Source: Balneolaceae bacterium (GTDB taxonomy: Bacteria > Bacteroidota > Rhodothermia > Balneolales > Balneolaceae). From it: DNA of 64,000 nt. The position numbers and the translations under genes were made by a program. The stretch covers positions 1 through 64,000 of the forward strand of contig JAFIES010000048.1 in the NCBI GenBank assembly GCA_020832415.1, written 5' to 3'. Positions within the stretch are counted from its first letter, which is position 1. The number at the start of each line of letters is the position of its first letter. The notes under the pieces are model-generated. The model was given only the letters and a program-made list of their open reading frames with translations, had not been told where the DNA came from and searched no databases. This document shows, in pieces, positions 24,155-27,130 of this stretch.

Positions 24155-26014
24155 ATGGCAAATAATTACCGGGCACTTACCCGCACATACCGGCCCCAAA
24201 CCTTTGAAGATGTTGTATCGCAGGAACACGTGAGCAGCACTTTGAAGAATGCCATCAAGCAAAACCGACTTTCGCACGCCTACATGTTTTGCGGCCCGCG
24301 TGGCGTTGGAAAAACAACCATGGCAAGAGTGCTTGCGCGCGCCATCAACAATATTGATGACACGGTTGACGGTGAATCGCTCAGCCAGACTCTCAATGTT
24401 GTAGAGATTGATGCAGCATCGAACAATAAAGTTGAGGATGTTCATCATCTGCGCGAAATTGTGCGCGTTCCTCCACAAAGCGGCCGCTACAAAATTTTTA
24501 TTATTGATGAGGTTCATATGCTCAGTAAGCAGGCATTTAATGCCTTGCTGAAAACACTTGAAGAACCGCCGCCACATGCGATCTTTATTTTTGCCACAAC
24601 GGAACCGCATAAGGTTCTGCCAACTATTTTGTCGCGGGTTCAGCGATTCGATTTTAAGCGTATCAGTGTTGATGAGATTACATCACGCTTGCGGGAAATT
24701 TGCGGGAAAGAGGGAATTACCATCGATGAAGAGTCGCTGCATACAATTGCACGAAAAGCAGATGGTGCCTTAAGGGATGCCCTCGGGTTGATGGATCAGG
24801 CCATTGCTTTCTGTGGAATGAACATTCAATACAGCGAACTAACCCAGGCACTGAACGTGGTGGGTAATGAAGAGCTCTTCGAATTTACCAAGGCTGTAGC
24901 CAATCGCGACTCAAAATCAGGCCTTTTGTTGATTGACAGGCTCCTGAAAGAGGGAATTGATATTCAGGAGTTCCTGGTTTCTCTCACACTGCATATTCGT
25001 AATCTCTATGTTGCTCTGCAGGCAGATAATATGCATCTGGTTGAGGCTACCGATGAGACAAGGCAGCGATATAAAGATATTGCCGGCCACTTTTCGGAGG
25101 ATGACCTGATGAGAATGCTTCACCTGGTGAGCGAGGCCCAGCTAAATATGCGTGAAGTGCAGCAGCCACGGGTCTATTTTGAAATCCTGATGCTGAAGCT
25201 GGTTCACATGAGCCGGGTAAAGCAGCTTGGCGAGTTGCTCTCTGTGATGGATGATCTAAAAAAAAAAGGAATTGATCCGGAAGGAGTCTCCGTAACCTTT
25301 AAGGAGCGCGGGCTCATAAAAGAGAGCTTTAGGGCCACAGAACCCGGTCGAGTTTCAGGAAATGAACCTGAAGAAAAACCTGTCCCCGAGGTAAAGCAAA
25401 TATCGAACAGCGCAGCGAAAGACGTTCAGGCTGAAGAAACCCCTGTAAAACCTGTATCCGAAGAACCCAAGAACAGATCGCTCCCCAATCGTGTAGAAGA
25501 GAATACGGATGAAGATGATCTGAGTGAGCTCTTGATGGGAAAACCATTTCTCAGATCGATACATCAGCCCCACAGGTCCAATGGGAAAGCTCCTGCAGAA
25601 ACACCTGTTCAGAAAACACCCGAAGTTGAAATAAGCAGTGTAAAACTGAACGGCATTGAGGATATCGAGGAGAAGTGGGATCAGTTTCTTGATCTTGCCA
25701 ATCAGCATCTTTCTCAAACGCTTTTTATCATCATTAAAGATGTTCGGCTGAAAGATCTGAAGGGCACGGAACTGATTATTTCAGTGAACACACCGTTTGC
25801 TGTTACAGCTGTTGAAGAGCATAAAATGCAGCTCTCATCATTGATGAAACAGACCATAGGAGTACATATTCGGTTTAAATGTGTTTGCGAAAGGCAGAAA
25901 GTGAATACAGAAGAATCTCTTAGCCCTTACGATCGGTTTAAGCAGCTGCAAAAAAAGGATACACACCTGAAAACCATTGTAGAGCTATTCGGCGCTGAGC
26001 TGGAATACACATAA
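24155..26014 (+). CDS. dnaX: DNA polymerase III subunit gamma/tau (619 aa)
   Basis: Clamp-loader AAA+ ATPase. YRALTRTYRPQTFEDVVSQEHV, Walker A GPRGVGKT (47-54), Walker B IIDEVHML (116-123) and sensor 1 ATTEPHKVLPTI are all present. Domain III ends near residue 360, followed by the tau-specific linker and polymerase-binding domain. Two oddities. The four-cysteine zinc module normally between Walker A and EIDAAS is replaced by a cysteine-free segment (about 62-82). An A10 run at 25258-25267 (codons 368-371) lies just after domain III; a shift into the -1 frame ends at TGA two codons later. That predicts a gamma-like short form of about 373 aa. First gene of dnaX-ybaB-recR. Confidence 0.95.
   Translation: MANNYRALTRTYRPQTFEDVVSQEHVSSTLKNAIKQNRLSHAYMFCGPRGVGKTTMARVLARAINNIDDTVDGESLSQTLNVVEIDAASNNKVEDVHHLREIVRVPPQSGRYKIFIIDEVHMLSKQAFNALLKTLEEPPPHAIFIFATTEPHKVLPTILSRVQRFDFKRISVDEITSRLREICGKEGITIDEESLHTIARKADGALRDALGLMDQAIAFCGMNIQYSELTQALNVVGNEELFEFTKAVANRDSKSGLLLIDRLLKEGIDIQEFLVSLTLHIRNLYVALQADNMHLVEATDETRQRYKDIAGHFSEDDLMRMLHLVSEAQLNMREVQQPRVYFEILMLKLVHMSRVKQLGELLSVMDDLKKKGIDPEGVSVTFKERGLIKESFRATEPGRVSGNEPEEKPVPEVKQISNSAAKDVQAEETPVKPVSEEPKNRSLPNRVEENTDEDDLSELLMGKPFLRSIHQPHRSNGKAPAETPVQKTPEVEISSVKLNGIEDIEEKWDQFLDLANQHLSQTLFIIIKDVRLKDLKGTELIISVNTPFAVTAVEEHKMQLSSLMKQTIGVHIRFKCVCERQKVNTEESLSPYDRFKQLQKKDTHLKTIVELFGAELEYT
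25258..25267 (+). promoter_or_regulatory. A10 slippery run, candidate programmed frameshift in dnaX
   Basis: The zero frame reads CTA-AAA-AAA-AAA-GGA (Leu-Lys-Lys-Lys-Gly). A -1 shift or an extra A in the mRNA gives AAA-AGG-AAT-TGA, stopping at about residue 373. Loss of one A gives a stop nine codons on (TCT-CCG-TAA). The position, just after the clamp-loader domain III, matches where E. coli and Thermus make gamma. The mechanism (RNA polymerase or ribosome slippage) is inferred. Confidence 0.6.
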
Positions 26015-26103: not shown

Positions 26104-26451
26104 ATGAATCAATTTAATATGGCAGACATGTTTGGTAAAATTTCAGACATGCAGGCTAAAATGAAGGAAGTACAAGATCGCCTTTCAGAAGTAGTGGTAG
26201 AAGCTGAAGCGGGTGGCGGAATGGTAAAAGTTAAGGCCAACGGAAAGCGTGAGATTTTAAGCGTTGAACTGGATAAAGATGTTGTTGACCCTGAGGACAA
26301 GGAGATGATTGAAGATCTCGTAGTTGCAGGAGTAAACAGGGCACTTGTGAAAGCCGAGGAAGCCGCTAAAGAGAAAATGCAGGAAGTATACAAAGATATA
26401 CTGCCCGGTGGCGGATTACCCGGAATGGATATGAGTAAATTCGGCCTCTGA
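26104..26451 (+). CDS. ybaB: YbaB/EbfC family nucleoid-associated protein (115 aa)
   Basis: This small DNA-binding protein has the family pattern: a helical start with MADMFGKISDMQAKMKEVQDRL, the strand EAEAGGGMVKVKANGKREILSVELD, the segment VVDPEDKEMIEDLVVAGVNRAL, and a glycine/methionine-rich tail (LPGGGLPGMDMSKF). Members form dimers that bind DNA and sit between dnaX and recR in very many genomes, as here. It is 89 bp after dnaX and 73 bp before recR, consistent with one transcript. Confidence 0.95.
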   Translation: MNQFNMADMFGKISDMQAKMKEVQDRLSEVVVEAEAGGGMVKVKANGKREILSVELDKDVVDPEDKEMIEDLVVAGVNRALVKAEEAAKEKMQEVYKDILPGGGLPGMDMSKFGL

Positions 26452-26524: not shown

Positions 26525-27130
26525 ATGCAAATAACCTCAGAAGCTCTTGAACGGGCTATCGAAGAGCTTGCCAAATTGCCCGGTACGGGCCGAAAATCAG
26601 CACAGCGAATTGCAATTCATCTGCTCAAACAAACCGAAGAGAATGTTTTTAAACTGGCCGAAGCACTAATTCAGCTCAAGAAATCGGTGCAGAGATGTAC
26701 AGTTTGCGGAACCATAACAGATTCCAATCCCTGTTCCATTTGCAGCAACCCCAAGAGAAATAATGGCGTAATCTGTGTTGTGGAAGAGTTTCAGGATGTG
26801 TTTATCATTGAAAAAACCAATGAATTTCGCGGACGATACCACGTTCTGGGAGGCACAATTTCTCCCCTTGAAAATATTGGGCCCGATAACATTCGGATCA
26901 AAGAGTTGCTCCAGCGAGCCGGCAGCACCGAAGAGAAAGTGACGGAGGTAATTCTGGCCCTCAATCCCGATGCAGAAGGCGAAGCCACATCGTATTACAT
27001 TAACAAACTTCTCCAAAATTATGAAGTTAATGTAACCCGCATTGCCTACGGCATACCGATGGGAACCGAACTGGAATACATCGACGAGGCTACCCTGAGC
27101 AGGGCATTTTTAAGCCGAACAACATTTTAA
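26525..27130 (+). CDS. recR: Recombination mediator RecR (201 aa)
   Basis: RecR works with RecO/RecF to load RecA on gapped DNA. Present are the helix-hairpin-helix LAKLPGTGRKSAQRIAIHLL (residues 15-34), the C4 zinc finger CTVCGTITDSNPCSIC (about 59-74) and a Toprim domain beginning ICVVEEFQDVFIIEKTNEFRG with YHVLGGTISPLENIGPDNI. The C-terminal Walker-B-like segment VTRIAYGIPMGTELEYIDEATL also fits. Length is standard. Third gene of dnaX-ybaB-recR; the M1 peptidase gene begins 33 bp downstream. Confidence 0.96.
   Translation: MQITSEALERAIEELAKLPGTGRKSAQRIAIHLLKQTEENVFKLAEALIQLKKSVQRCTVCGTITDSNPCSICSNPKRNNGVICVVEEFQDVFIIEKTNEFRGRYHVLGGTISPLENIGPDNIRIKELLQRAGSTEEKVTEVILALNPDAEGEATSYYINKLLQNYEVNVTRIAYGIPMGTELEYIDEATLSRAFLSRTTF

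Follow-up and report, generated by a model that had tools for sequence, protein, structure and literature searches.

The dnaX locus and its A10 run

The window, that is, the whole stretch of 64,000 nucleotides analyzed here, carries on its plus strand an open reading frame of 619 amino acids (positions 24155 to 26014) that is dnaX, the gene for the full-length tau subunit of DNA polymerase III. The encoded protein matches TIGR02397 (dnaX_nterm) over residues 5 to 349, with an E value of 3.2e-119 and a score of 398 bits against a cutoff of 250, and it also exceeds the cutoffs of PF13177, PF22608, and PF12169. It comprises the AAA+ clamp-loader core and domain III, the latter defined by the PF12169 match (E = 1.4e-11) at residues 233 to 362, encoded by positions 24851 to 25240, where the conserved core ends. 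Directly downstream on the same strand lie a gene of the YbaB/EbfC family (26104 to 26451) and recR (26525 to 27130), both of which are open reading frames named by gene order, and the order dnaX-ybaB-recR is common to the window and the E. coli annotation.

Six residues past the end of the domain III match begins a run of ten A residues (25258 to 25267), a putative slippage site contained in the sequence CTAAAAAAAAAAGGAATTGA (25256 to 25275), which can be divided as CT-AAAAAAAAAA-GGAATTGA. In particular, the run takes in the last base of codon 368 and all of codons 369 to 371 (CTA AAA AAA AAA). The addition of one A would give CTA AAA AAA AAA AGG AAT TGA, with translation ending in LKKKRN after 373 residues at the TGA of the -1 frame (25273 to 25275), and the removal of one A would give an alternative short form of 379 residues, ending in LKKKELIRKESP at the TAA of the +1 frame (25293 to 25295). 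The two stops thus lie 2 (-1 frame) and 8 (+1 frame) codons past LKKK. The 373-residue form (24155 to 25275), which would arise from a transcript with eleven A residues or from a -1 shift, is predicted to be a gamma subunit with domains I to III, without the linker and without the tau domains at the C terminus. The preliminary description of this DNA had placed CTA and ten A residues at codons 368 to 371, just past domain III, with a -1 shift reaching TGA after AGG-AAT to give about 373 residues and with a +1 frame closing within ten codons; the sequence, the PF12169 match, and the translations bear out each of these points.

The run in dnaX is the sole A or T run of at least nine nucleotides in the whole 64-kb window. 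Across the 3.94-Mb genome there are about 11 distinct runs of at least ten A residues, four of which are located on the sense strand of long open reading frames, namely, dnaX, copA, and two accessory genes. An A10 run of this sort is therefore rare in the genome, not unique, and its significance comes from its conservation. The runs in the accessory genes (L139, G000:C21:5171-5180; L141, G000:C39:4918-4927) belong to one gene whose product resembles a polysaccharide flippase and one whose product resembles an ATP-grasp enzyme. The genome-wide counts of A9 were based on pattern searches, from which 30 runs were sampled; 11 of the 30 are on the sense strand within a stop-to-stop open reading frame, many of them close to its beginning and hence perhaps 5' of the actual start codon. 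Toward its 3' end, dnaX also has a second, shorter run, an A7 (25950 to 25956, CTG CAA AAA AAG), which in relatives ranges from about A6 to A8 and whose variation contrasts with the fixed run at 25258.

Conservation of the run in the Balneolaceae

The closest records that bear a name belong to Rhodohalobacter and further Balneolaceae, and relatives of dnaX were gathered at the genus, family, order, and class levels. Of 87 Balneolaceae loci, 79, representing 19 of 21 genera, carry A9 or A10 at an identical codon position and phase, counts that are not independent since the family sequences are kin. Among the family loci carrying the run, no copy is broken by AAG or otherwise interrupted, and the question raised when the site was first described, of its persistence in the face of synonymous drift, is thus answered in the affirmative within the family.

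The alignment of 78 of these genes allowed us to compare the third-base positions of 364 codon columns. Exactly three of them, in codons 368, 369, and 370, show zero variation, and these are precisely the wobble positions inside the run. The Lys column that comes next ends in A in 88% (12% variable), and the other Leu, Val, or Ile columns are at most 47% A ending, versus 100% at codon 368. In the latter, the residue may be Leu, Val, Ile, or Ala (TTA, CTA, GTA, and ATA, with GCA in genus g20), and the final base is always A; in these genes, codons ending in A account for 19% of those for Leu, 27% for Val, and 13% for Ile. Codon 371 is AAC, AAG, or AAA, so that Asn and Lys replace each other and the A residues are retained. 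Because the wobble positions are invariant, codon 368 always ends in A, and residue 371 varies, the conservation of the run reflects selection acting at the nucleotide level and not on the protein.

The aligned genes had been chosen by the presence of at least nine A residues, so that the wobble result could be circular, and the family loci outside the alignment were therefore inspected. These are seven loci of genus g19, one of genus g9, and L194 of genus g13, which has the run. The left-out g19 and g9 loci that are readable at the site present other residues there and no LKK; the alignment left out no locus for a synonymous break. A few members of the family (L160 and L170) have no run of at least eight A residues in the linker, from which it follows that gamma may not be indispensable.

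Stops in the shifted frames

A stop in the -1 frame occurs within 2 codons past the run in 86% of 76 genes, versus 28% in a background made of random codons of the same linkers, and a stop in the +1 frame occurs within 10 codons in 93%, versus 34%. When one gene per genus was considered (17 genera), the values were 15.7 versus 4.7 for the -1 stops and 15.1 versus 5.4 for the +1 stops, and none of 5,000 background draws reached either per-genus value. At the homologous site of 54 relatives without the run, the -1 stop is found in 4% and the +1 stop in 17%. This comparison shows that the stops in both shifted frames have been selected for.

Relocated and reversed runs in relatives

In genera g19 and g9, which have no LKK motif at position 368, several members present A9 or A10 at position 393, 403, or 410, and the -1 frame closes 2 to 7 codons further on. 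A similar arrangement is seen in family f2, where L246 has CTG AAG AAA at the old site, with AAG as codon 369, and an A10 at about position 407 leading to EKKKS and a stop; L244 and L249 resemble it. In family f3, the run is in another phase and leads to KKKTP and a stop. Genus g20 displays the reversed layout in two species (L183 and L186), where frame 0 closes at AKKKD and the tau C terminus, of 190 to 222 amino acids, lies in the -1 frame after A10 and requires one extra A to be reached; this C terminus ends in FGAELKQ, versus FGAELEYT in the window.

Of the named Bacteroidota loci, 35 of 73, among them loci of Saprospiraceae, Alistipes, Chitinophaga, and Flavobacteriales, have a run past domain III together with an adjacent -1 stop or a reversed layout. 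The latter applies to L059, L072, L084, and L099 (Crocinitomicaceae, Flavobacteriales, and Bacteroidales), where a frame 0 stop is located right past A10 and tau continues in the -1 frame; in annotations, the dnaX genes of these four loci probably figure as truncated or split genes. The signature was not found in the sampled dnaX loci of Prevotella and Bacteroidaceae. These run-less loci (L043, L045, L047, L048, L056, L061 to L063, L067, L069, and others) feature past domain III a conserved stretch of the form GGGCG... or GGGCTT...GCCC, after which comes a motif of the LKPIF or LKSLF kind; this may be a motif of the protein or a signal of some other sort. Since the run moves, changes phase, and exchanges the roles of the two products while keeping its stops, a frame-shifting function is the best explanation for it.

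A second gene with the run

One of the four genes with a sense-strand A10 run, copA, was picked as a negative control, and it failed as such, having the same device in the genus of the window. In the window's own genome (L255), the copA run is located at G000:C51:10112-10121 on the minus strand. This species and five others (L256 to L260) have copA as a single open reading frame with A9 or A10 just past the second of its metal-binding domains; the -1 frame closes 2 to 3 codons past the run. The gene is split in 13 more species of this genus (L263 to L275): the metal-binding domains are encoded in one frame and the ATPase in another, frame 0 closes soon after A9 or A10, and the full pump is regained in every case by adding one A. 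An ordinary copA without a run occurs in two further members of the genus, L261 and L262, and the copA orthologues sampled outside the genus are single open reading frames.

The layout is common to 13 species, and for this reason an assembly error is very unlikely. For CopA to be functional in these species, the run must slip, which offers indirect evidence that A9 and A10 runs slip in the genus of the window and makes copA a likely second slippage gene. In E. coli, copA is subject to -1 ribosomal frameshifting that yields a copper chaperone (Meydan et al. 2017, cited through PMC5009743 and PMC9548414). The genus resembles E. coli in that the run lies just past the metal-binding domains, with a short chaperone and a full pump predicted from one gene; it differs in having usually two metal-binding domains, and not one, before the site, in the pure A run, and in that the pump, not the chaperone, is the shifted product in the 13 species. 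Taken with dnaX, these observations make it reasonably likely that the genus uses poly(A) slippage as a general device to obtain two products from one gene, tau and gamma from dnaX and chaperone and pump from copA, with runs that move and rephase, defaults that switch, and nearby stops that are kept.

A predicted dual product and its possible routes

It is possible to hypothesize the following mechanism for the window. RNA polymerase would slip on the A10 run and generate mRNAs of mixed run length. Transcripts with ten A residues (or 10 + 3n) would encode full-length tau, and those one or two residues longer, or one shorter, would meet a stop within 2 to 8 codons and encode gamma, a protein of about 373 to 379 residues that would keep the AAA+ core and domain III without the C-terminal tau region. 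Slippage would have to occur here at a useful frequency, mainly during transcription, and gamma would enter clamp loaders. On the strength of the comparative sequence data, we consider it very probable that dnaX yields a short and a long form and, with somewhat less assurance, probable that RNA polymerase slips at the A10 run in a programmed way, so that one gene supplies two clamp-loader subunits.

Three explanations besides slippage by RNA polymerase or by the ribosome were considered. The run could simply follow from a conserved Lys-Lys-(Lys/Asn) linker and A-rich codon usage, with no dual product, and indeed Lys 369 and Lys 370 are invariant across the 78 genes, in which AAA makes up 67% of the Lys codons. 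However, of the other adjacent Lys pairs in these genes, only 41% are AAA-AAA, the preceding codon ends in A throughout even though its residue changes, among 364 wobble positions the three of the run vary least, the shifted-frame stops are enriched, and g20 needs a shift to make tau; chance or codon bias, rejected mainly on the wobble invariance and the 41% figure, is thus a very improbable reading. Equally improbable is a contingency tract at the DNA level, where replication slippage would toggle dnaX forms by phase variation. Homopolymers mutate readily, and the run is A9 in some species and A10 in others, but the length changes are compensated, with frame 0 open in 77 of 79 copies, and the two exceptions have one common stop and belong to one genus; moreover, dnaX is presumably an essential gene, no random off-states occurred among the 79 copies, and phase variation was rejected on the compensation and the lack of such states. 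The idea that the run is a translational pause or a nucleic acid signal, and not a slippage site, can draw on the finding that poly(A) lysine codons slow ribosomes and make them slide (eLife 2015, PMC4363877), but it leaves the enriched -1 and +1 stops and the reversed layouts without an explanation, and we give it the least credit of all.

More weight is due to programmed -1 ribosomal frameshifting, in which ribosomes would shift on A_AAA_AAA or A_AAA_AAN and reach the -1 stop to produce gamma, as in E. coli. Both slippery heptamers are present in frame in every copy; as to the A_AAA_AAG form used by E. coli, it occurs in 19 of 76, with A_AAA_AAC in most relatives and A_AAA_AAA available in the window. 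The -1 stop is the nearest and most strongly enriched one. Furthermore, every reversed layout (two g20 dnaX genes, four dnaX genes of other Bacteroidota, and 13 copA genes) uses the -1 direction, a uniformity that Antonov et al. 2013 (PMC3711429) take as a hint of frameshifting but that insertion-biased slippage predicts as well. A Shine-Dalgarno (SD)-like sequence within 20 nucleotides upstream of the run occurs in 22 of 78 copies, versus 6% in the background, starting 7 to 9 nucleotides upstream in some relatives; it is absent from the window copy and from 56 of the 78. On the other hand, one heptamer needs seven A residues and leaves the invariance of at least nine without a reason: with A_AAA_AAA alone, codon 371 could vary, and with A_AAA_AAN the third base of codon 368 could, yet neither has departed from the A run. 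A -1 shift likewise gives no reason for a closed +1 frame, yet the +1 stops are enriched. The Rfam DnaX element has no match at an E value of 10 or below, and a frameshift element of that type was accordingly rejected. Nor could we detect a conserved downstream stem-loop, the mean z score being -0.17, versus -0.06 for the next 60 nucleotides, in a weak test where the E. coli dnaX control gave 0.23 in spite of its stem of -19.7 kcal/mol. Ribosomal frameshifting is, on balance, unlikely to be the main route.

Transcriptional slippage is favored, although not proven, as the main route, and the greater part of the confidence we place in a dual product goes to it, because the conserved unit is of at least nine A residues, both shifted frames are closed, and there is neither an Rfam DnaX element nor a conserved stem-loop or SD-like sequence. 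The proposal of the preliminary description that dnaX has two products is supported by the enrichment of stops in both frames, by the relocated runs with their -1 stops, and by the tau of g20 that is obtained only by a shift; its view of RNA polymerase slippage as the probable cause is preferred over ribosomal -1 frameshifting and stands short of proof.

Comparison with known systems

In Thermus thermophilus, dnaX undergoes transcriptional slippage on an A9 run with stops in both frames (Larsen et al. 2000, cited through PMC1088944 and PMC5009743). The window shows the same arrangement, with a run of at least nine A residues inside one open frame for full-length tau, close stops in both nonzero frames, and a predicted truncated gamma, but it comes from another phylum, and its slippage is predicted from sequence. 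With E. coli, the window has in common the gene and the outcome, a gamma that terminates shortly past a slippery site rich in A. The E. coli signal joins A_AAA_AAG to an SD-like sequence upstream and a stem-loop downstream; the Balneolaceae site, by contrast, has no Rfam match and no conserved SD-like sequence or stem. Antonov et al. 2013 (PMC3711429) describe two-ORF dnaX genes with A7 to A10 runs, Chlorobi included. Genus g20 and the loci L059, L072, and L099 of Crocinitomicaceae and Flavobacteriales are like these genes, since poly(A) lies at the frame transition and tau needs a shift, whereas the default in the window is the opposite, with tau in frame 0 (to 619 residues) and gamma predicted to come from slippage. 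In the literature searched, mostly papers available without subscription, we found no report of dnaX slippage in this group; the kind of slippage is known from Thermus, and the Balneolaceae case is apparently undescribed within that literature.

Significance

Baranov et al. (PMC1088944) point out that truncating slippage sites are hard to spot by comparison. The combination of wobble invariance and stops in both shifted frames identifies the site in dnaX, and the same test could find others. The need for gamma, and the reason why some bacteria make it, is an unsettled question, and one review (PMC3290774) describes most bacteria as being without frameshift signatures in dnaX. Since the signature reported here is strictly selected throughout the Balneolaceae and recurs in other Bacteroidota, gamma may be far more widespread than has been supposed.
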